Shown here: in pieces, positions 49,251-62,845 of the stretch
Numbering within the stretch: the stretch's first letter is position 1
Layout of the letters: every line of letters starts with the position of its first letter
Assembly: GCA_021904315.1 (NCBI GenBank)
Contig: CM038913.1
Span: 4,277,958-4,341,957, forward strand
Direction of reading: 5' to 3'
From: Sphagnum magellanicum
Taxonomy: Eukaryota; Streptophyta; Sphagnopsida; Sphagnales; Sphagnaceae
Length of the DNA: 64,000 nucleotides
The notes under the pieces: generated by a model
Told to the model about the DNA's origin: nothing
Database searches by the model: none
Seen by the model: only the letters and a program-made list of their open reading frames with translations
Translations under genes and position numbers: made by a program

Positions 49251-50560
49251 CAAACACCAAGACCTCAAGCAGAAAGGCCATGCTCAAGCTGATGTTCAAA
49301 GCCCAAAAGGACCTGAATTCCTCAATTGTTGAGATGTGGTCTTCTTCACCCACAGCAATTCACTATGATAAGAGGCTAACAATTCCAACATACAGAATCT
49401 TCAAGGGTGCAGCAATCTACCCATCTATGTCCATGAGAGTTACAGTCGTTGCTAATAGAGATAGGCTAGCCCAGCATCAAGAATACAAAACAACACCCAA
49501 TTGAAGAGTGTTGTTGCAATAGTTCATGTAGCACTCATGCACAAAGTTCTTTGAAGAAACCAAGAGGACGAATGGGGACTGAATGGCAACTCTGTAGCTG
49601 AGGTTCCTGAATGCGAGATGACCAGCTGCAACTTCATCAACTAACACAGAAAAATCTCCTTTCCCGTTTTCTTTTTTCCCAAGGGCTTCTTTCCCTGCAC
49701 ATCCATTCACTAGCTGTCTACCATGTCACCTAAAGCAAGCACAATTTTCATCAACCTGTTTCCAGCAAGGTATTATTGTATGGTAGATAACATGAACCAT
49801 ACTTGCAAAGTAAATGTCGATACAACAGTCAAAATCCTAATTCAACTCTGAATGCAAATGCAACTCTCAGACAGAGAGAATGTCCATTCTCAGAGTCTAT
49901 TTTCAGTACAAGCAGCTGCCCTTCATGTATTTGTGATGATCATCACTAAGATGAGACAAGGATCTGAGTAGTCTGTGTGAACCCACAATTCCACTTTACC
50001 CATCAACAACTTTTGCAGTACATCGCACTTCTTCCAAGAGCACACAGGATAGAAGCAGAGGTGGCACTCAGAGATCATGACAATTGTAAGCTTTCTTGTG
50101 TTATTACTCTGTGTGTGTCTGTCTACTGATTTCTTCTTCTCACAGTACGTGTGGTTGCGTTACTTGCCGAAAGATTTTGACATGGAAATCGTCGGACGCA
50201 AATCGAAAAATTGGATACCTTCTGTGTAAGATGCAGAACCTCTTGTTTTCCTTCTATGTGATCAAACTATATGATTTGAAATGAATTTTTTCTGCTGTCT
50301 TCACTGTAGGTCAGAGAGAGAGAAACGGTGACTGGAGAAGGTACGTAGATGCAATATGCTGATGCTGGAGAAGGCCAGTGCAGCTTTCTCTGTTCTTATG
50401 ATAGCATGTGTGCCTGGGATGTGGAGAATGCATGGCTTTTCAGCTTGACCTGGATATTTGTTGTACACAAATGAGAGGTACCCGGATTTCAAACAGAAGA
50501 AGACAGGGGAAGCAGTCTGGCTTAATGACTGACAAAACCTGCCATGGGTGGCAGCAGAGA
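49250..50560. other. More balanced sequence upstream of a PPR relic
   Basis: Composition is less AT-rich than to the left. A 74-codon plus ORF (49280-49504) and a 77-codon minus ORF (49477-49710) overlap at their ends; I recognise neither. 50090-50350 precedes the plus-strand PPR relic and may have been its promoter and leader, but no TATA box or splice pair could be fixed. Confidence 0.35.
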
Positions 50561-50599
50561 TGGCTGCATTGGCACCAGGCAAAGTGCAATTGCACTCTT

Positions 50600-52620
50600 T
50601 TGCATGGAATCAGAAGCTTACAAAGTATCTAAGGCTGGGCAACTAGAGAAGGGAATGCAGCTTTTCCAGCAAATGCAATAAGAAGGAAAGGCTCCTAACA
50701 AATTCACTTTTGTTCAGGTGATTAAGGCATGTGCTGGTTTAGGAAGACTTGAAGACGTTAGGCTTGCTCATGAACAGCTCATTCAAAGTAGTTGCAAGTC
50801 TGATGTCTTTGTGGTGAGTAGCTTGGTTGACATGTATGCAAAATGTGGGAGCATTGAGGATCCTGGGAGTGAAAACTCTTACTTTTGTGGGGGTGCTGAA
50901 TGCCTGTGCCAGTGTGATTGCACTTGAAGAGGGCAGCTGTGTTCATCACCACATTGTTCGAAGTGGTTTGGAGTCTGAGGTCTTTGTGGGGTGTAGCTTC
51001 ATTGACATGTATGCAAAATGTGGGAGTGTTGAGGATACTTGGAGAGTGTTCAACAAGATGCGATCTTGAGATCTGGTCAATTGGAATACCATCCTATTGG
51101 GTCATGTGAAATGCAGGCAAGGACAGAAGGCACTAGAACCATTTTGACAAATGCAACAGGAAGGTTTGCAGCCAAACACTGTAACTTTTGTGGGGGTGAT
51201 TAATGCATGTGTGAGCATGATTGCACTTGAAGAGGGCAGGTGTGTTCATCAGCAGATCATTGAAAGTGGTTTGGAGTCTGATGTCTTTGTGGGGAGTAGC
51301 TTGGTGGACATGTATGCAAAATGTGGGAGTATTGAGGATGCTGGGAGTGTGTTCAACAAGATGCCATCTTGGAATGTGGTCACTTGGAGTGCTGTGATAT
51401 TGGGACATGTGAAATGCCAGCAAGGGCAGAAGGCACTAGAACTATTTCGGCAAATGCAACAGGAGGGTGTGCAACCAGACTCTGTTACTTTTGTGGGGGT
51501 GCTGAATGTGTGTGCTGGTGTGGCTGTGTGTGCCAGTGTGGCTCTGTTCAAAGAGGGCAGGTGTGTTCATCAGCACATTGTTCAAAGTGGTTTGGAGTCA
51601 GATGTCTTTGTGGGGAGTAGCTTGGTTGATATGTATGCAAAATGTGGGAGCCTTGAGGATGCTTGGAGATTGTTCAATAAGATGCCATCTTGAAATGTGT
51701 TGACTTGGAATGCCATACTTGGAGGATGTGCCATGCATGGGCATGGTAGGGAAGCTCTTAAACATTTTGAATGGATGTGTGAAGAAGGTGTACAGCCAGA
51801 TGGTATCACTTTTATTTGTCTTCTGTCAGCTGTAGCCATGCAGGTCTGGTGGATGAAGGCATGCACTTGTATGCTTCAATGATCAGACACTATATTATTC
51901 CTGCAAAATTGGAACATTACACCTGTATGGTTGACCTTCTTGGCCATGCTGGCCATCTACAGGAGGCAGAGCATATGGTCATGGCAATCCCCTGTAAACC
52001 ACAGGTGGCTGCTTGGATGGCTTTGCTCGATGGTTGCAGAATTCATGGTAACGTGGAGATGGCAGAATGCATTGCCAAACAAATTCTTGCAATGGAGCCT
52101 GAAAGTGTTGCTGGTTATGTACTGCTGTCAAACATCTATGCCGCTGCTGGCAACAGGCATCTCTGTGAGAATATTGAATGGCAGAGAAAGGAAAAAGGTG
52201 CAAAGAAACATGCCAGGTTGCACCTGGATTGAAGTGAATTATGAGGTGCATATGTTTGTAGTGGAGGATCAAGACCACCCCTAGATGATTGAAATTCATG
52301 CAGAACTGCAGGGCTCATGCATGATGCAGGGTATGTGTCTTGCACATAATTTATTCTGGATGATGTGGAAGAAGAGGAAAAGTTTTAATTTGTGTCACCA
52401 TTGTGAGAAACTGGCTATTGCATTTGGGCTCATCAACACAGCTCCTGGTACTCCTCTTTGAATACCAAAAAATCTGTGGGTTTGCAAAGATTGCCACACT
52501 TCCATGAAGCTCATTTCAAAGATAGTTGGGAGAGCCATCATGGTGAGGGATGCCAATCCCTTTCATCACTTTGAAGATGGTGGTTGTTCTCTGACATCAG
52601 TGAACCTCCTCCTTCACATT
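50600..52620 (+). pseudogene. PLS-class PPR protein with DYW domain, pseudogene
   Basis: PPR-DYW proteins bind organellar transcripts one base per repeat and deaminate C to U through the DYW domain. The relic starts near 50600 with A-G-Q-L-E-K-G-M-Q-L-F. It runs through three near-identical P-L-S blocks (V-D-M-Y-A-K-C-G-S at 50828, 51008, 51309 and 51631), then E motifs and a DYW domain at about 52290-52605. The domain keeps the zinc-site HxE (H-C-E-K-L-A-I-A-F) and CxxC (C-K-D-C-H), but the final C-x-D-Y-W is replaced by C-S-L-T-S. It is broken by in-frame stops (TGA 51067, 51145, 51691; TAG near 52282; TGA near 52458; TAA near 50680) and frameshifts near 50875, 51820 and 52190. At 50867 one repeat lacks about 130 bases present in its neighbour. 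It is nuclear DNA, so organellar-type editing cannot rescue it. Long ORFs on the other strand are shadows. Confidence 0.85.
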
Positions 52621-53460
52621 GATTGGATTTATATACATTGCACAGATCAGAGCTGGTTCAAGGTATGTGAGAATGTATGTGTGTTCAAATGGGGTTGTGG
52701 CAGCTTGGACAAAGCAAGACATATCTACATTCTAATGATCCTAAAATATTCTATTGGATTTCTATTGTTTCTGAGCTGACTGAGTTCAGCAACAAACAAC
52801 TTGAGCACTCTATAATTCCTGAGAACCTGTGTGAATACTAGGACATACTCAGTTGTGGCAAGACTTGTTGGAAATGTTTGAAATGGTGATATCCTCTGCA
52901 TATCCACTGACATATCCTTCATCTCCCTGCCCCCCAAAAAATAATCCGAAGCTCTGACCTTCAGAATTATAAATGTCAATTGATTTTAGTGCTAATAATA
53001 TTATCCCTCTCATGTGTGTTCCAACTGATCAAGAAAATTGTGCAACTATTTTATCAAAGGAATCAGCAAACTCTGCATTGCCAAAATAAACTATGACTAA
53101 CTATCAAACAATGTGGAGATTTGGGTGCCATCAAAGCTAGGTCGTAAGGACATGAGTACCAGCCTGACTGCTTGGTAATTTATGGTGAAGAAAGATATTA
53201 AGTAGAAAAAAGGTCTATCCAGTAAAAGATTGCATAAAGGCATAAAGGCACTAGATGAAACAGATTCTGATTGCATGTTTATGGGGCAGAAGATTCAGTG
53301 ACAATTTACCAATGTTCCTATTGTTTGATTTAACGCTTCAGGACCTGAACTCATCCCATTCTGGAGAGTTTTGGATCATGCGAAGCTGCTGGTTTTGGTT
53401 CATCAAATTTCAGTAGGCCCTCCTCAGCCACATGCATAAACACTGCTTGCTCCCTTCTCT
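52620..53460. other. Spacer between PPR relics
   Basis: No gene recognised. Composition resembles the flanking PPR relics, so part may be former 3' untranslated sequence. Confidence 0.4.
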
Positions 53461-53465
53461 GCCTC

Positions 53466-53730
53466 CTATGGATGACCAGCACGGCCAAGAAGGTCCACCA
53501 TGCAGGTGTAATGTTCCAATTTTGCAAAATTCATGGAGTCTGATTGTTGAGACATAACACTGCCTTCACCACCAAACCTAGCTGGTTGTGAGCTGACAGA
53601 AGAAGACAAACAAAAATTGATATCAATTGGCGATGCTCCCACATTCACCTGCATGTCAACCAAGCTAGTCCACACAAAGACATCAGACTTGCGACCACTT
53701 TGAATAATTTGCTCCGTAACATATCTAGCT
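53466..53730 (-). pseudogene. PPR fragment with internal deletion
   Basis: On the minus strand 53710-53640 encodes E-Q-I-I-Q-S-G-R-K-S-D-V-F-V then S-L-V-D-M, the L/S junction of a PLS repeat. About 100 unrelated bases later, 53535-53466 encodes A-K-L-E-H-Y-T-C-M-V-D-L-L-G-R-A-G-H, the segment that precedes the E motif in the neighbouring relics. Several repeats that should lie between are missing, so this is a deletion derivative. Too short to function. Confidence 0.7.
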
Positions 53731-53739
53731 TCTGAGATC

Positions 53740-55420
53740 AGGAAGACAATGAAGGATAACTACAGCCGCTAGATTATTGCTGTCGGATGCCTATGATTTG
53801 CAAAACATAAGATCTATCATTGATTACTGGAGAATAAGAACAATTAGTGTACAATGCCTGCTGCAGATCAATGCAGTGAGTAAAGAGGGACAAGCATGGT
53901 TTGGTACCTGCCTGAAAGATATGTGCATGCTCTTCCTTGCTAGTCTCATCTATTGACCACCATCCAAGAAGCCTGCAACCCATGCAAGTTGGATATATTA
54001 GCATCTTTCAGAAAGGAGACTTAAACTAGTGACATGGACTAGGATAATTGGTTTAAAGGTTGTTGCGTTACAAAGCATGGAAGTAGAAAGCTTCAATTTG
54101 AGATTGAATCAAAGCTATGAATGAGGAAAAACAACTCTCTGGGCAAATATCTGAAACTCCCAAACTTACCAGGATATTTGAATTGAATATATCCCTCTGT
54201 TGCATAGTCTAGAAATTAATGCCTTTCTTTTCCAAACAAAATAGCCTATAAGCTGAAGATTGGAACAACTACATCAGCTTCTGATTGAGTCCTCAAACAA
54301 CTGCACCACCACTGGTTTGATTCTCTGATCACAAGTACTCATGAAATGGAGCATGTGGATTGTCAACTTAGATAGTGAAAAACTGTTACATCTGACTTGC
54401 CAGCTGAAGCAACAAGGAACCAATTGGAGCAGAAAAATGACCTTGTTTGATTTCTTCTTCAGTATATGCATAGTGTTGGGATTTTGGCAAATGTGGATGT
54501 CAATGCCCGTCATATGCTTATACTCATTGGGTGTTTGATAGCACGTGATATTATGCAGTTGTGCTGATTCGTCCTTTCCTGCCAATTCATAATGTCACTG
54601 TACAGCTTCCTTGGAGGTGTCATATGACCATGCCTTGATTCATTCTTTGTAGTAGGCCAAGGAATCAATTTCCTTCCTTCACTTCTCCTCTGCTCATATC
54701 CTGCAACGTGAAATCCAGAATCACTGAATTCAGCAATAACACTGCAATACAAGGTTACACAGATCTCCTCTCAAGATGGGTTCCTGCTTCCAGCAACAGA
54801 AACCTTGACACAATTATCAGATTTCTCAGACAAGAGCGGAGTCAACCTTCACAGAAGAAACAGAGCTAAAGTTTGTGTTCAGGAAACACCACTCATCGTA
54901 GAAAACAAACTTGTGAGCTCATGCTAGATTGACTTGAGCAACTGTCAGTGTATCACTAAATAGCCAAACTTTTCATTGTCCAGTGACCACTGAGATAAAG
55001 CACCAAGTGGAACCAAAGATACTGAACCAATAGATACTTGAGGTTAGTGTCTTGTAACAGTCTGCAGCGGTCTGCAGCCAAGAATATCAAAAAATGTGAA
55101 AACAATACATAGCTTCCAGTCCACAAGAAAAACATGTTTCAGATATGCACTGGTTGAGATGTGTGTAAAACCTAGCATTCAAACTTACCATCAGAGAGGT
55201 ACAGAGAGTAAAGAGACAAGCCTTGGCCCTCGAAGTGTCCCTAGTGGTGATAGCTCCTTCCAACTGTCATCGAAAGCAAAATTACCTGAAATGCTGAAAT
55301 ATGTTAGAAGTTGACTCTAGTGCATAAAAGTAACTCCAGGAGTAAACAGCGAGGCAGAAACCTGGCAGTAGAACAAACATGACACAATACAGCCAATCTA
55401 TAGCCAAACAGATGTGGACA
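53740..55420. other. Spacer between PPR relics
   Basis: No gene recognised. Short ORFs on both strands (for example 54274-54585 minus, 103 codons) show no motif. Confidence 0.4.
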
Positions 55421-55422
55421 AA

Positions 55423-57040
55423 TCATCTTACAGTTGGGAGTAGACAACCAGTAAGTTCAGAGGCAACTTTGCAAACATCATCAAATTCATAATGCTCACA
55501 CATTCTGCCCTTGGACAATGAAAGAAGCCCACCACCCACCAAAGCTTGTTTTGCAACATGTTCACCACTCTCCACATTATGATGGCTTCTGCATGCACCA
55601 AGCAAGACCATCCACACAACTGCATTTGGTTCACAGGGCATTTTAGGATCAGACACTTGTTGTCTCCTATAGAAGGCATTTCTAGGTCCAATTTGCATAG
55701 CTTGTTTTGCAACACATTCACCCATCTCCACATTACCATGGCTTTTGCAAGCACCAAGCAAGGCCATCCACACAACTGTATTTGGCTCACAGGACATTGT
55801 CATGATCAAATGCTCTGCCTCCTTTAGATGGCCAACACAGCCTAGAAGATCAACCATGCAGGCATAGTGTTCCACTGTTGCAAAAATATTAAAACATGAA
55901 CTCATTATATGAAAATAGTGCAGGCCTTCATCTACTGGGCCCTGCATGGCTACAAGCTGATAGAAGAGAAACAAAATTGATGTGACTAATCTCTACACCT
56001 TTTTCACACATCTGCTTAAGATGTCCATGAGCTTCTTCAGTATACCCATGCATTGCATAGCCCCAAAGCATGGTGTTCCAAGAGATCACATCACATATGG
56101 GCATCCTGTAAAAAACTCTCAATGCATCCTCTATGCACCAACATTTACCATACATGTTAACCAGGCTATTGCGCACAAAGACATCAGACTCAAAACCACT
56201 TTGAATGATCTGATCATGAGCATGCCTACCCTCTTCAAGTGCCGTTGAACTGGCACATGCATTCAGAACCCCCACAAAAGTGAGATTGTTTGGCTCTACT
56301 CCTGCCTGCCGCATATGCTGAAAAAGTTCCAATGCCTTCTGCCCTTGCCCTCATTTCACATTCCCCAGGATAATGACATTTCAAGAGACAACATTGCATG
56401 TTGGCATCCGGTTGAATGGACTCTGAGCATGGTCTATACTACCACATTTGGCATACATGTCAATAAGGCTGCCCACAATGACATCAGACTCAAAACCACA
56501 TTGAACAATCTGTTCATGAACATGCCTGCCCTCTTCTAGTGCCATGATACTGGCACATGCATTTAGAACCCCAATAAAGTAACATGGGTGGACCCTTCCC
56601 ATTGCATTTGCTGCCCTTGTCCACATTTCACATGTCCCAAAATCATGGCACTCCAAGAGATGACATTGTGTGCAGTCATCCTGTTGAACACTATCTGTGC
56701 ATCCTCGATGCTTCCACATTTTGTGTACATGTCAATGACGCTATTGCCCACAGACAGTTGACTCACAGCCACTTTGTAAAACTTTTGTATGGATGTTTCT
56801 GCCAGCTTCAAGTGCTTTTATACAAGCATATGAAGTGAGCACACAAACAAAAGTGAATGTGTCAGGAATCATGCCCTGTTGCATTTCTTGAAAAAGCTCA
56901 ATTGTCTTCTCATTTTGCCCAGCTTTGACAGCCCTTGCTAACCTCCAATTCCAAGCAAATGTGTCTGATTGCACAATCCCTGGTGCCATCAGAGCCAGCT
57001 CTGCTTCTACCCACAACAGATTCAATTGCTGCCAAGCCAA
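55423..57040 (-). pseudogene. PLS-class PPR protein, pseudogene
   Basis: In transcription order: 57040-56760 gives S-D-T-F-A-W-N-W and I-P-D-T-F-T-F-V. 56780-56600 gives V-I-D-M-Y-T-K-C-G-S after a frameshift near 56765. 56590-56381 gives G-V-L-N-A-C-A-S and D-M-Y-A-K-C-G-S, then TGA stops at 56383 and 56353. 56332-55950 gives two more repeats. 55950-55430 gives V-E-H-Y-A-C-M-V-D-L-L-G and a duplicated block of about 155 bp (E-P-N-T-V-V-W-M / E-P-N-A-V-V-W-M). No full E or DYW domain follows; the frame ends in unrelated sequence. It resembles the plus-strand relic closely in repeat wording, so the two are probably local paralogues in inverted orientation. The RNA-binding role is inferred for the ancestor only. 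Confidence 0.85.
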
Positions 57041-57411
57041 AGTGCATCTTGTCTCTTCTTATGTTTGAAATCAGGACACCTTACATTCAACTACAACAAG
57101 AAATTCAAATTCTGTTGATAGGCTGTACATTGGAAGGTGCAGACTGGGAAATCAAAACACATAAACCAAGAGAAATCCATGAATTTATTGCATCAAAAGA
57201 GAAATGTGGCACCAATGGGCAGCAGTGGTTTTTGCTTACCTTCTCTGACCTGTGATCCCACAACTGTAAAGGATCTGAGAAGAACTCCTGCCAGAGATTG
57301 GTCCCAGTCCATTCTAGGTGCCCGAGACAGACAGGGGCAGGAAGGGAGAAGGGAGAGCCGACTCCTTGAGAAGGGCAGGCTTTATATAGACCGAGCTTTG
57401 CGTTCTCCAAG
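57041..57411. promoter_or_regulatory. Short head-to-head intergenic region
   Basis: About 370 bases separate the first recognisable PPR codons on minus from the likely transcription start of the AP2-derived gene on plus, so both may have shared a promoter. The plus-strand TATA element lies near its right end. The minus-strand 101-codon ORF (57105-57410) has no motif and is more likely leader sequence. Confidence 0.45.
57381..57389 (+). promoter_or_regulatory. TATA box candidate of the AP2-derived gene
   Basis: TTTATATAG stands alone in GC-richer sequence and would place a transcription start near 57412, just before a CT-rich leader. Position and isolation make it a good candidate; no experimental support. 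Confidence 0.55.
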
Positions 57412-57865
57412 TATCCGCCCTTTCCGCCACCCGCACACTTGCAGCGAGCTCGCTCTCTTCTCCTCCTCCTCGCAGTTCAAGTTTGGAGCGAGCTTCTTCT
57501 TCTCCTCCTCCTCGTCATTCGCACTTCTTCAACTCTTGCCACCTCTCCGGCTGCTGCAACTTGAGGTAAATATTCATTCTCCACACTTGTTCTTAAATGA
57601 TGCACACGAGTTCTTTAGTTCGACTGCTTCCGGAGCTCTCATCTCTCTGTGCACACCTCCCTCTCATTCTGTCTCTGTGTGTGTGTCTCTCTCTTCATTC
57701 TCTCTGTGTAGACCTCTCAGTGTGCATTCTCTCTGTGTTTTTCTGTTTTTCTGTTTTTTTTTTTGGGCCTGTTTTGCTCAGATAATAACAAGTTTCTGCA
57801 AAATTGAATTGCAGTAGTACTTGTACAAACGAGCGTGTAGGGAGTATTATCGAAATCGAGAAATC
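57412..57865 (+). other. Predicted 5' leader with intron
   Basis: A leader exon of about 57412-57565 would end at TTGAG|GTAAAT. An intron 57566-57814, with CTCT/TGTG runs and a T-tract, would end TTGAATTGCAG, and a second leader piece runs 57815-57865 to the ATG. The leader is CT-rich (TCCTCCTC runs), as is common for plant regulatory genes. Boundaries are inferred from splice consensus only. Confidence 0.5.
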
Positions 57866-60747
57866 ATGACTCCTCAACGTCGCGAGTCAGGAGTATTATC
57901 ATCGGGACGGAAGGAAACGGCAGCTATGGGGGGCCGTGATCTGCATGCTGCAGCAGCAGCACAACCACCGCGCAGATCGATCCACAACACGACGCCGCAC
58001 AGCAGCAACAGCAGCAGCCGGCGTAGTGCTCAGGCATTCACAGAACTCGGTCCGCGTCGATGCGGCGGGATCGTCGACAATATTCCTACAGCAGCACCAA
58101 AAGCGCCACCACCCAGAAGATCAACCCACAAGTTTATACACTTCTATCTAAACACCAGCTTGTATGGTGCCTGGCAAAAGTAAGTAAGAAACTACCCAAC
58201 AATAAACGATCGATCTGAGATTGCTGTTGCTGCATTGTAGTAGCAAAAATACTGATGATGTTGCAGTGTACGTGGTTTGATCTTGTGGGTTTCTTTTGCC
58301 TTGTACAGAGCTTATGAAGGAACCGACAAGATGCGAATCTTCATTGGTAAGAAGCACACGAACTTCACTGATCCTGCAGTACGCTCCATGCACGTCCACG
58401 AGGTTTGAAAGCATCACATGCTGCACATCAGATAGGACTCACAGAATCCGCTGAAGAAATTCTTCAAGAATTAGCTCCTGTCCTTCAGCTCATGTGTCCT
58501 TATGTGTAATTGCCTGTCTGATCAGCAGCCGATCATCATGTGCCAGTGTCATGAGACCTTGTTTGTCATGTGCTGCTGCAGGTTGTTACCGTGAAGAAGA
58601 GGAAGCTCTGAGGTACGTGTTTAAACGTTGTCTATCATCATGAGACTTACAGGAACTAGTTTTGCCTTTCTTCAGTGTTTGAAGCTTGTTTGTTTGATGT
58701 TCTAGCAAGCTGTTGTTGCTGCTGCTTTGATAACGTTAATATTCTGATCAAGCTCTTCTGCTGCTGCGGCTGCTCCTGCAGGGCCCAAGACAGGGCATGC
58801 TTGAAATTCAAACTGCCAACCGAAATGCTGCATTATCCTGAAGAAGATTATGTGGACGATGAAGAGCTGGTGAGTTTATCGTCTCCAGCTGCTACCATGA
58901 TCAGATCTGCATCTGCCTGGGGCTGGCCACCCAAGTGATCAATCCAGGATGCATTTCCTCTCAGGATCTATGAATGCAGAGAATTTGCACTTCTTATTTC
59001 AAAGATCATGCATGTCAGTATGATGATTCCTCCTCCTGCTGCTGATGCTGCTGCAGAGGCAAACATTGAACCACGAGGAATTTGCACAACTCCTTCGATC
59101 TGAGAGCCGGAATTGCTACAAAACAGTGGCGCCATCAAAATGTAAGACTTTTGTATTTCAGGCCTAGCTTCTATAGGCCGGAGCTGATCTGGTTTGCTAG
59201 TTGGGTCTGATGATCTTCTGTAAGATCTGATGATGCATTGCCTAGTGTGTAATATTACTGTGTGCAGGTCTAAAGAAACTGCAAGAGAAGATGATGCAGA
59301 GTAGATCTTCAGCAGCTGGCCAGCTACATTCAACTGATGATCACCAACCTGCTCCTCCTGCAAGGAAGTCTGGTACAGCTCCTCATGACATGAGGACCTG
59401 CACCCTAGGTGCTGGCATACCCATGGCTGCAGCAGGTGGGTTCAGGCTAGCAGGAGCAGGAGCAGCTGATCAGGAGGATCAACAGCACTACCAATTGCAA
59501 GTTCTAGATCATTTTCTGGACAAGCTGCTTAAATTCATTCCCAGAAGAAAACGTTCTTGCAAGATCAAATTGCAGAAAGTGCCTGAGATTAAGACACTAG
59601 GGATGATGATGACTCTTCCTAAAGCAGCTGCTACTGTGGCAAGCACTTTGACTACTACTGTCACCAAACCTCAGGACAGTACTAAGAGCTGCAGCAGGTA
59701 ACTAGACTTCTTCTTCACTTGGTTACATCAACAACATGCACTATTGCCAAAGATCAGCCAGCTGCTGCTGCCTGCTTATTTATTGTTTAAATTTCATTCA
59801 AGCTCATGTCTACTGACAGTCAGATCTTATATTGCATGATCATTGACATCTTTTTATCTGCTTACCCAAACTGCAGATCCAACATCATGGAGCTCCAGGT
59901 GCATCATCAGCAAAGCTTCAAATCCAGCACAAGTCTGGATTTGGCAAACAAGATGAATTCTTTGTGCATACCCACCAGGTACAAAATCTTCCCACCATCA
60001 CGGAAGCTTGTTTACGGTTTAGGATTCAGGGTTTGGGGAACCTTTATGATTCAGGGTTTAAGGTTCAAGGGTTTAGGGTTCAGGGTTGAAGGGTTTGAGG
60101 TTTGGGGTTCAGGGTGCAAAATAGGGAACTTGTATGGTATACATTTCAGTTCAGGTAAAATCTGGGCTGCAATGATAAGCTCTGCTCCACCTATAATCAG
60201 ATAACTTGCTTGTTTAAGGTTCAGGGTTATGGTTTTGGGGTTTAGGATGCAAAATAGGAGAACTTGTATGTTATAAATAAGTTCAGGTAAACTTAGCTAA
60301 TATTGTTTTTTGGTCAAACCTCAAACCCTGAACCCTTCTTCAGAGATTTGTTCAAATGATATTTATCTAGACTTTTGTTTTCTGAAGTTACAATGGCTGT
60401 TTACTAATCTCTCAAACTAACTACCTGGAAATTTGTGCAGGTCAAGATCCATCTGTAAAGTGGTAAGTTCACTTCTTTACCTGCTTTTCCATGTACAGTA
60501 GAATTGTATCCTCGTTCTAACAGCTCGCATAAACGGAGTGTAAAGTTTGAACTCTGCATGAGTAATTTCCCACTGATAAATCATTTCTCATTTTGAGCAA
60601 ATTCAAGGAACTTTGACAAAGCCTTTTGTCATGGAATTAACTTTTCTTTGTTTTTGGTGCAATTTTTTGCAGGGATCATGTCTGAAGTTGGACATCATTC
60701 AACTGAACTATTCATTCAACAGAGCCAAGTTTGAGACATATGTGTAA
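57866..60747 (+). CDS. Diverged euAP2-class (APETALA2/TOE-like) derived protein, nine exons
   Basis: EuAP2 factors carry two AP2 DNA-binding domains and are repressed by miR172. Proposed exons: 57866-58179, 58309-58346, 58582-58612, 58782-58869, 59057-59141, 59268-59697, 59877-59978, 60441-60462, 60673-60747. All introns are GT-AG, phases agree, total 1185 bases (394 residues). Residues 86-157 parallel AP2 domain 1: H-F-Y-L-N-T (family TFYRRT), F-I-G (YLG), L-R-A-Q-D-R-A-C-L-K-F (ARAYDRAAIKF), D-Y-V-D-D-E-E-L (DYDDDLKQM). Residues 158-180 parallel the linker (N-H-E-E-F-A-Q-L-L-R-S-E-S). The 31-base exon (G-C-Y-R-E-E-E-E-A-L-R) matches one I recall from AP2 genes. Odd: the YRG core of domain 1 is lost, domain 2 shrinks to L-K-K-L-Q-E-K-M-M-Q, and a degenerate miR172-like site remains at A239-F244. 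Basic P-R-R-K-R at 277-281 may be a nuclear signal. Exons 7-9 have only splice and phase support. It could also be a decaying gene that happens to stay open. Confidence 0.7.
59426..59446 (+). promoter_or_regulatory. Degenerate miR172-type target site
   Basis: In euAP2 genes the miR172 site encodes A-A-A-S-S-G-F. Here GCTGCAGCA (AAA) is followed by GGT, GGG and TTC (GGF): the 5' half is intact, one codon is missing, and the 3' half is altered. Pairing with miR172 would be broken in the middle, so regulation is probably lost. The position, in a late exon after the AP2 region, is where the family has it. Confidence 0.45.
60003..60250 (+). repeat. Degenerate TTTAGGG/TTCAGGG (telomere-like) repeats in intron 7
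   Basis: GGTTTAGG, GGGTTTAGGGTTCAGGGTT, GGTTTGGGGTTCAGGG and similar heptamer variants recur about 15 times between 60013 and 60245, inside the intron from 59979 to 60440. The plant telomere repeat is TTTAGGG. This is an interstitial, decayed block, not a chromosome end. The ORF that runs through it is read-through of the repeat. Confidence 0.7.
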
Positions 60748-61250
60748 CTGGACTATGGATCTTCTTGTCCTTTTGTATATGTCAGTCATCCATTAGTTGG
60801 ATGTTTCTGGTACACGGCCTCAATTTTGGGTATGTTGGTTGGTCATCATGTTGGTCATATCCATGAGTTGGATGCTTGTAGTATACCTAGTTTTCATTTT
60901 TGGTACATTTTTTGGTCATCCATTCATTGGATGTTTCTAGTATGCAGCATCAAGTTTTGGTATGTTGGTCATCCATGAGTTTAAGGTTTCAAGGATGCAG
61001 CCTCTAATCTTGGGTTGTCAAGATATTATCTGACGATGATTTAAGCATACAGACAAGTTTTGTAAAGAACTGGAAAATGGTGTTGTCATTCAGGTCATGT
61101 AATATACTTAGCTCAATGTGATGGGTGCTGGCTCACAATTATGGATGTGTTGATTTGTCATGGAATATCGAATGCTTGTTTATTGTGACCTTATGTATCA
61201 GGAATACTGTGAATTATGTTCTTACTTTCTGTGCGACTCCAGAACTTTTC
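60748..61250 (+). other. Predicted 3' untranslated region with tandem repeat
   Basis: After the stop at 60745-60747, units starting GTCATCCAT..GTTGGATG lie near 60785, 60854, 60915 and 60968 (spacing 69, 61, 53). Each is followed by TTTCTRGTA..C and a TTTTGGTATGTTGGT-like end. The polyadenylation site is not obvious. Confidence 0.55.
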
Positions 61251-61262
61251 TGCAAATTTCAG

Positions 61263-61612
61263 AATAGGTAAGAAGGTAGGTAGATAAGTAAATAGATAGG
61301 TAAGGAGATAGGTAGATAAGTGAGGAAGTACTTAGGTAGATAGGTAAAGAGGTAAGTAGGTAAGTAAATAGATAAGAAAATAGGTAGGTAAGTGAGTAGG
61401 TACCTAGGTAGATAGGTAAGGAGGTAGGTAGGTAAATAAATAGATAAGAAAATAGGTAGGTAAATGAGTAGGTACCTAAGTAGACAGGTAAGGAGGTAGG
61501 TAGGTAAGTGAGTAGGTACCTAAGTAGATAGGTAAGGAGGTAGGTAAGTAAAGAAATAGGTAGGTAAGTGAGTAGGTACCTAGGTAGATAGGTAAGGAGA
61601 TAGGTAGGTAGG
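61263..61612. repeat. GGTA/GATA-type tetranucleotide minisatellite
   Basis: The block is built from GGTA, AGTA, AGATA and AAGTA words. A higher-order unit of roughly 70-80 bp contains AGGTAAGTGAGTAGGTACCTAGG, AGATAGGTAAGGAGGTAGG and TAAATAGATAAGAAAATAGG, repeated about four to five times. Read on the minus strand it gives an open frame of Y-L-L-T-Y-L-P units, which is a product of the repeat and not a protein gene. Confidence 0.9.
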
Positions 61613-61619
61613 GACAACA

Positions 61620-62030
61620 CTAGAGATAATAGGTAACCTGAGTTAGAATACCCCCTTTTTTTCCAATAAAAATTAACTAAAGAAACTTGGTCAACAATAG
61701 CATTCAGTACTACTAGCTAGCTACTTTGTACCATAGTTAATTTGGCTACTTGCAAAATGGGTTTACAGACTAGTTAAGATTTAATAAAATTTCATTACTT
61801 TGCAGATACCAGTGAAAGAGGGGATAAGGGGTGAAAGCCTGCCAAAGACAGGGTGAGTCTATGGATAAGTCTATTTTGCAGAAGAATAGGCTCCCCCCGC
61901 CCTCCAATGTTTGATGTGGTACAATCATCTTGGACTTCTAATACTTACCTACCCACTTGGCAGACATGGACTGGATGCAACCGGGCAATAATTCATATAT
62001 TCATCCTACAAGGCGTCGGTTTTACATCCC
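61620..62030. other. Spacer
   Basis: AT-rich to 61800, then balanced; no gene seen. Confidence 0.4.
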
Positions 62031-62039
62031 ACTCAGAAA

Positions 62040-62357
62040 ATCGGACAGAAAAAAGGAAACGAACAAAAAAAACAAAGTGCGCAAAAGAAAAGCTCCAATC
62101 CACAACGGTTTCATCCATATGGGTTGGCATATCATTCACGGTTCGGTAGTAGAGAATATTCTCATTCAAAACTCCATCGTTCTCATCCAAGAGAAGGAAG
62201 CTCCTCCGGGCCTGTCGCGTGATCGAGACGACGTGCGAGAGAAGAGAGTTCGCGGGGAGCAACTGCAGCGACAACAAACGGAGGACGCGGAGGCGGAGTC
62301 AGAGAAGGAGAACAAGGAATTGGCGACGAGAGCGACGGAAGGAGAGCTTGATTGAAA
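62040..62357 (+). other. Exon-like GC-richer block, unrecognised
   Basis: An open plus-strand frame (ATG at 61966, stop at 62353-62355) becomes CpG-rich after 62160 and encodes a highly charged end rich in E, R, K and Q. It is followed within three bases by a good donor, AAAG|GTACTT (62358). This looks like a first exon or leader of a plus-strand gene whose remaining exons would lie beyond 62.4 kb or outside the window. No domain is recognised and no downstream exon could be joined. Confidence 0.3.
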
Positions 62358-62362
62358 GGTAC

Positions 62363-62845
62363 TTAAACAGGATATAATCTGAGTTGACTCTTTGGTTGGA
62401 TGATCAGCGGAATGTCTTCTGTTAGTTGCTCTGCTATGACATACTGTGCTAACCTGTCATGTGTTTGTGATAGCAGAAGTGATGGGCCAGCAGCAAGTAG
62501 CTGTCTGCAGTGATAGAAGTTGAAACGTGGATATATAGAAGAGGACAAGAGGGTTTGATCATGGTGATTACAAAATTCATACATAATGCTTATGGAACAA
62601 TAAATGGGTTTGGGCACACATGCTTCAGTATAGCATGTGATAGGGGTCTCTGATAGTCTGGGGCCTGCTGGTGTGGGACTTAGTTCAGTATGCTGATCTC
62701 CTTTTCTGGTAAAGCCTAAGTTGTCAAATCCAATCTTAGTGAGTGGAGTTGGTGGTATCTGTAGAGGGGAAGGCATTGACAACAGGACATTACGCCCTGG
62801 GAACTGATTGTGCAGGAGGTTTGCAATCACAGCTACTTTCTCCAC
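62363..62845 (-). other. Unrecognised 160-codon open frame
   Basis: A long frame for this composition, without an ATG at its 5' end (it opens at a GTG). The translation is rich in L, P, S and T, with no motif, signal peptide or repeat that I know. It may be an internal exon, transposon debris or chance. Confidence 0.2.

Follow-up and report, generated by a model that had tools for sequence, protein, structure and literature searches.

An amplified euAP2-derived gene family with a remnant first AP2 domain in the moss Sphagnum magellanicum

What becomes of a transcription factor gene that has lost much of its DNA-reading part, yet whose leftover looks conserved and which has multiplied in its genome? 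This question is raised by a nine-exon gene located at positions 57866..60747 on the forward strand of a 64,000-nucleotide stretch of Sphagnum magellanicum DNA (contig CM038913.1, positions 4,277,958 to 4,341,957; hereafter the window). An initial annotation, made from the sequence alone, had described a single gene derived from the euAP2 lineage with an eroded first AP2 domain, and had presumed relatives among ferns. Nothing in the data shows a fern; the host is a moss, and the gene is one of 19 copies. The multicopy amplification, the near-total loss of the second AP2 domain, and the near-neutral evolution of exon 6 all go beyond that description. Because many copies are largely intact and the remaining AP2 piece is seemingly protected by selection, the locus suggests a new job for an eroded AP2 gene. 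No such family was seen in the titles and abstract openings of those open-access PubMed Central (PMC) articles that were listed for Sphagnum and AP2. Its members are natural variants that make roles of the AP2 domain besides DNA binding testable, and a multicopy moss family of this type is also useful for studying palindromes and possible gene conversion.

Gene structure and AP2 homology

When the nine segments are spliced, they create an open frame of 394 codons plus a stop codon with consistent phases, and all eight introns within the coding region are of the GT-AG type, precisely as had been proposed. Exon 1 (57866..58179, forward strand, as for all features of the gene) includes the start codon, and its tail aligns with the first strands of the first AP2 domain (R1). 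This is followed by exon 2 of 38 nucleotides (58309..58346) and by exon 3, a 31-nucleotide micro-exon of the R1M3 type (58582..58612). Homology searches place the R1 helix and the start of the linker (DRACLKF, EDYVDD) in exon 4, which is 88 nucleotides long (58782..58869), whereas the 85-nucleotide exon 5 (59057..59141) encodes the linker (LNHEEFAQLLRSES) and perhaps the start of the second AP2 domain (R2). Exon 6 (430 nucleotides, 59268..59697) carries no recognised domain, but does carry a basic RRKR cluster at residue 278. Exon 7 (59877..59978) and the 22-nucleotide exon 8 (60441..60462) are defined by the splice model and the alignment of copies, and exon 9 (60673..60747), which ends with the stop codon, exhibits 92-100% identity in all 15 of the other copies that have exon 1.

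The proposed gene model is confirmed. Exon 6 is strong coding evidence by itself because an open frame in any phase appears by chance in only 3 of 3000 dinucleotide shuffles; in the natural sequence one frame is open while the other two contain 11 and 10 stops. The openness of exon 1 is weak evidence when taken alone (513 of 3000 shuffles are also open). In a ranking based on a plant splice-site matrix, the donors of the eight coding introns and of a putative intron in the 5′ untranslated region (UTR) occupy ranks 1-6, 8, 11 and 16 among 184 regional GT dinucleotides, and the acceptors range from rank 1 to rank 76 among 222. In addition, the retention of the eight coding introns does not fit a processed pseudogene. 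The predicted fold of exon 6 was unusable, with a mean predicted local distance difference test (pLDDT) score of 46.6 and helices at 68-89 and 116-126.

As the annotation had held, exons 2-5 are homologous to R1 and the linker, judging from sequence comparison. A phmmer search of PDB sequences, using the piece from the exon 1 tail through exon 5, yielded WRI1 (7wq5, 252 residues) as the best match, with E = 3.5e-9 over chain residues 38-102, which cover R1 and the linker. Similarly, exons 3-5 share 18-20 identities in 59 residues with each of six reference R1-linker stretches in an ungapped register set by the exon boundaries. For each of these six sequences the fixed-register score was reached by none of 20,000 shuffles, and sliding the register by up to 8 residues loses the score. 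The exon 1 tail alone is a weak match to AP2 strands (309 of 5000 shuffles reach its score). The expectation that a profile search would also reveal AP2 similarity was only partly realised: the comparison with WRI1 succeeds, but the Pfam AP2 profile (PF00847) leaves the window protein unmatched even at E ≤ 10. Among 131 matches to this profile listed across the genome, none lies inside the window, and the sole Pfam match of the spliced protein is TsiV, below the cut-off. When viral contigs were searched with the R1 piece, no relative emerged.

The annotation had further stated that residues contacting DNA are largely replaced. This is the case for the first strands of R1, where a YRGV-type sequence has been rewritten to KFIH, and less so for the third strand, which reads MRIFIG versus KQVYLG, by the usual assignment of contact positions. 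At the end of exon 5 the alignment enters possible first residues of R2 and then stops. R2 is otherwise absent, as a tblastn search of the 64 kb produced no match outside the gene better than E = 0.1, and this domain appears to be essentially gone.

Sequence alone leans towards the euAP2 lineage but falls short of proof, because blastp with the spliced protein prefers TOE3 (50.4 bits) and AP2 (48.1) over WRI1 (43.5) and ANT (38.1), while the ungapped scores (69-83) overlap between euAP2 and WRI1 and peak for WRI1. The exon architecture is more informative. Exon-1 tails resembling those of euAP2 genes are present at four places on contig C8, with 63-71% identity over approximately 28 residues, and one of these (C8:4611251-4612150) was read. 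Its exon 1 ends at GRWEAHIW and is followed by exons of 38, 31 and 97 nucleotides, the last of which closes in the phase seen at the end of the window gene's exon 4; the phases agree throughout. Because the C8 gene carries both exons, the 38-31 pair is a euAP2 form present in the host genome, and the occurrence of these two micro-exons in a euAP2-type gene supports euAP2 ancestry with conserved exon breaks, including the 31-base exon noted in the annotation. As to the 10-residue R1 insertion of the ANT lineage, exon 2 codes for approximately 13 residues, as in the C8 gene, and is intermediate between the euAP2 and ANT lengths. We had considered exon 2 as a 26-nucleotide exon with an insertion specific to the window copy, but this was dropped since the C8 exon also has 38 nucleotides. 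Micro-exons of 9, 26 and 31 base pairs have been described for R1 of AP2 genes, with those of 26 and 31 arranged in tandem (PMC7714060). The tandem pair of the window gene therefore matches this description in its 31-nucleotide member, whereas 38 nucleotides replace the 26. The 9-nucleotide micro-exon of the ANT/WRI1 lineage does not occur in the window gene, which has the 38- and 31-nucleotide exons instead. A query with exons 3-5 of AP2 listed nothing near these tails on C8 at E ≤ 10, so exon 4 of the C8 gene has diverged as well.

Copies of the gene and selection among them

Searching the host genome (438,994,042 bases in 31 contigs) with the spliced protein, we located exon 6 at 19 places and exon 1 at 16 of these. 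The 16 copies are dispersed over contigs C1, C2, C3, C7, C14, C15 and C16; of the partial ones, two lie on C8 and one on C3. The family, comprising 16 copies with exon 1 plus three partial copies, has recently been amplified. In the window, the shared block spans 57296..61264 on the forward strand and displays 95-96% nucleotide identity, introns included, to the eight other copies whose flanks were fetched. Its left edge at 57296 is the same in all eight. The matches extend to 61264 in six, and the two remaining ones end at 60810 and 60866.

The 16 copies with exon 1 were aligned for an analysis of constraint, with the three partial copies left outside it. The whole frame is open in 14 of the 16, at lengths of 392-399 codons, and all 16 splice dinucleotides are likewise intact in 14. 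Distinct changes and indels were counted in 14 copies, omitting L011 as well as L024, which is identical to L023. In exons 2-5 there are 14 synonymous and 10 nonsynonymous changes, giving a ratio of nonsynonymous to synonymous rates (dN/dS) of 0.19 (p = 6e-5). The AP2-derived exons therefore look to be under purifying selection, consistent with the earlier proposal that selection keeps the eroded piece, and the ratio for the whole gene is 0.58. Exons 7-9 also carry a signal of purifying selection (10 synonymous and 11 nonsynonymous changes, ratio 0.28, p = 0.004), whereas exon 6 is relaxed or neutral. Exon 6 can serve as an internal control, against which the bias in exons 2-5 is evident (one-sided Fisher p = 0.003); the same comparison with exon 1 gives 0.017. 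The two stop-creating changes among those counted are both found in L013.

Indels exhibit a comparable pattern. Ten of the 11 distinct coding indels are multiples of three, compared to 7 of 33 outside exons (p = 7e-5), a class that includes some 5′ leader and 3′ columns. The annotation had named a dN/dS near 1 with disrupted frames as the outcome that would speak against it, and this combination is not seen among the paralogous copies. Among these copies, neither the frame nor the amino acids are unconstrained in the manner of a neutrally decaying pseudogene, although exon 6 alone fits neutrality for amino acids.

A proposed function and its alternatives

The explanation we favour is that of an amplified euAP2-derived coding gene whose product would no longer read DNA as AP2 proteins do and would instead have a decoy or adaptor role; taken as a whole, we give it an even chance of being correct. 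The gene descends from a euAP2-type transcription factor gene and belongs to a recently amplified family. Its protein, if made, could enter the nucleus by means of the basic RRKR cluster. DNA reading in the manner of AP2 would have been lost along with the first-strand contact residues and the second domain; the R1-linker piece has a net charge of about −3.9, compared to +1.7 for AP2. The retained third strand, helix and linker might act as a protein-binding module, most likely making the protein a decoy or adaptor that engages AP2-type factors or the proteins they work with. Such a role is plausible; the AP2 helix is described as serving protein-protein interactions (introduction of PMC7714060).

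Several observations weigh against this explanation. In addition to the failure of the Pfam profile and the overlap of ungapped scores with WRI1, the arginine of YRGV is missing from the C8 gene as well (SSEFLGV), and part of the first-strand erosion may be older and shared with that gene. The frame, start or an acceptor is damaged in 4 of the 16 copies. Specifically, exon 1 of L013 is frameshifted and this copy carries two additional stops; in L011 the head of exon 1 has been rewritten (22 bases fewer, 3 more), which places the start out of frame and leaves the remainder open to the end; and L014 and L018 are without the acceptors of introns 3 and 4, respectively. Moreover, most of the protein is weakly constrained, because the overall dN/dS is 0.58 (mean dN 0.0213, dS 0.0372; bootstrap 0.38-0.91), exon 6 is near neutral with 11 synonymous and 38 nonsynonymous changes (ratio 1.03), and exon 1 is only weakly constrained with 20 and 45 (ratio 0.75). 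The overall value derives from 12 copies, with L011, L013, L014 and L018 omitted and both members of the identical pair L023 and L024 retained; it is 0.586 when 15 of the 16 copies are used (L011 omitted). The binomial tests ignore transition bias, and the copies are not independent, given the identical pair on C1 and the sister inverted pairs, such that gene conversion could distort the counts. Finally, the whole protein is very basic, with a charge of about +21, and some DNA binding of a changed kind is possible.

An alternative that we regard as unlikely draws in part on this charge. The protein might still be a DNA-binding regulator whose AP2 piece and basic C-terminal part read a changed site, in which case specificity has been altered rather than lost. 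Purifying selection on exons 2-5 fits any kept function, including this one, and the total charge is favourable to it. Also, by our own placement, the MRIF of the third strand has retained an arginine and an aromatic residue where AtERF1 has Arg170 and Trp172, which are among the residues named for binding to the GCC box (PMC3602543). Against it stand the replacement of the conserved YRGV at the head of the first strand by KFIH, the loss of the second domain, the failure of the Pfam AP2 profile to recognise the protein at E ≤ 10, and the net acidity of the R1-linker piece.

Another unlikely alternative is that the gene is a passenger, a decaying euAP2 relic in a recent segmental duplication that has had too little time to accumulate breaks. 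The introns of the copies have diverged by only about 2.4%, and the near-neutral change in exon 6 and the damage to four copies favour this view. Furthermore, a sister AP2 relic, in which only exons 3-5 are recognised, lies approximately 5.5 kb downstream in several units and looks decayed: exon 4 is frameshifted in one of its five copies, and the other four differ by 6 synonymous and 9 nonsynonymous changes. The passenger explanation must contend with the ratio of 0.19 in exons 2-5 and with coding indels that are nearly all in-frame. In a simple neutral model, drift to 19 identities in 59 residues without a stop in 59 codons has a probability of about 0.16; for the absence of an indel the same model gives about 4e-5 when indels arise at 0.1 per substitution and 0.13 when they arise at 0.02.

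The genomic arrangement of the copies raises another alternative, in which the gene is the cargo or driver of a selfish amplifying unit, with palindromic pairs and gene conversion, and is kept by the spread of that unit and not by any need of the moss. Three head-to-head pairs, with members approximately 16-20 kb apart, are present on C1, C2 and C3, and the other copies sit in larger units of approximately 11-12 kb that are common to several chromosomes. The tree of copies is star-like, with the C1 pair identical and the C2 and C3 pairs each being mutual closest relatives; such sister inverted pairs fit either gene conversion between arms or late duplication. We consider this alternative quite improbable, as Pfam recognised no transposase or integrase in ten open reading frames (ORFs) of the fetched flanks (the matches were to a protein kinase in the flank on C1, plus weak ones below the cut-off), the borders vary among copies, and no terminal repeat common to them was established. 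A bolder reading is equally improbable as a whole. It holds that an ampliconic family of palindromic and dispersed copies exchanges sequence, and that its AP2 remnant, no longer binding DNA, acts in trans on AP2-type regulators as a dosage-controlled antagonist or a selfish driver.

A second copy of the block that might act as a palindromic partner was not found within the window. The copy at C1:7.28 Mb has the upstream flank of the other copies but the right flank of the window, and three further upstream flanks also match that of the other copies. Among the flanks seen, this left edge is thus specific to the window.

Flanking features and comparison with known AP2 systems

Upstream of exon 1, features of a putative promoter and leader are conserved among the copies. 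A TATA-like box (CTTTATATAG, 57380..57389, forward strand) is identical in all nine aligned sequences, including the window copy. A putative 5′ UTR intron (57566..57814, forward strand; its donor ranks 5th among the 184 and its acceptor 14th among the 222) has its donor GT and acceptor AG unchanged in the same nine sequences, as is the start codon. When spliced from an assumed start at 57412, the leader is free of ATG.

A sense miR172 site was not found in the mRNA with a miR172 query, as the best penalty of 9.0 was matched by 14 of 100 shuffles, and neither an LxLxL nor a DLNxxP motif was found in the spliced protein. The usual handles for euAP2 control and repression are therefore unseen. 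A miR172-like 21-mer on the sense strand of intron 1 (58246-58266, 16 of 21 positions identical) was judged to be a chance occurrence. None of 100 simple shuffles is as good, but 26 of 300 third-order Markov sequences are. The miR172 family is absent from the four Rfam matches obtained up to E = 5, and nothing in the folds stands out (z = −2.05 and −0.94).

Intron 7 contains degenerate telomere-like tandem repeats of the TTCAGGG/TTTAGGG type at 60043-60115; a related stretch in inverted orientation lies near 60316-60336. An array of 72-base units, rich in GATA and GGTA, adjoins the shared block at 61264-61614 and is also present at the C1:7.28 Mb copy. The segment of approximately 828 bases that follows (61614-62441) is missing at that copy, where 61613 joins 62442, and reflects either an insertion in the window or a deletion at the C1 copy. 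To the left of the gene, at 50300-57050, are repeats that we take to be PPR-like, in several frames and on both strands (for example, ORFs 51151-51693 on the forward strand and 55928-56332 on the reverse strand), and they are related to sequences near the AP2-derived copies on C2 and C3. Immediately beyond the right end of the window, ORFs at L048:6739-8280 (reverse strand) have what we presume to be the look of a pogo/Tigger-type transposase.

Other AP2-like sequences are also found in the host genome. Distant relatives of exon 4, 55-56% identical and with a stop in four of five, are located at C19:13886880, C19:13953575, C11:7199052, C11:7116302 and C18:13125970. A WRI1-like gene at C4:11089001-11089927 has R1 and R2 in one uninterrupted frame with a disturbed R2, and is 64% identical to the R1-R2 of WRI1. 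Single frames matching both AP2 domains, mostly of approximately 415 codons, are present at C10:3020893-3490417 and also on C11 and C16. These are approximately 40% identical to AP2, and some contain a stop.

Among known systems, the euAP2 lineage (APETALA2, TOE1-3, SMZ, SNZ) resembles the window gene in the homology of R1 and linker, in the 31-nucleotide micro-exon, and in the positions of DRA..KF, DY.DD and L..EEF. The exon phases agree with this family as well. The window gene differs in its rewritten R1 first strands and its near lack of R2, and neither a sense miR172 site nor an LxLxL or DLNxxP motif was found in it. We call the window protein euAP2-derived and not a euAP2 transcription factor because searches for a pair of AP2 domains, for a match to the profile and for a miR172 site all came out negative. 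A comparison within the host is the C8 gene, which shares the end of exon 1, the 38-nucleotide exon 2, the 31-nucleotide exon 3 and the end phase of exon 4, but keeps a recognisable first strand (SSEFLGVTHYQRTGRWEAHIW) and has an exon 4 of 97 nucleotides versus 88. It would be a relative, and a candidate parent at most.

Members of the ANT/WRI1 lineage (basalANT, euANT) exhibit an ungapped similarity in the R1 helix and linker that is about the same as that to AP2 (18-20 of 59). The exon breaks of this lineage differ from those of the window gene. WRI1 orthologues are the genes to which the 9-base-pair micro-exon encoding VYL belongs (PMC7714060), and R1 of the ANT lineage carries a 10-residue insertion (PMC7714060, PMC6361745). 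Soloist AP2/ERF proteins likewise have an AP2-like domain that is too diverged for the ordinary subfamilies (PMC6947164), but the micro-exon pattern of the window gene points to euAP2. A further parallel is the wheat splice form TaTOE1-B1-3, a euAP2 protein whose second AP2 domain is shortened, which differs in having lost only 15 residues of R2 and which delays flowering when overexpressed in Arabidopsis (PMC8657464).

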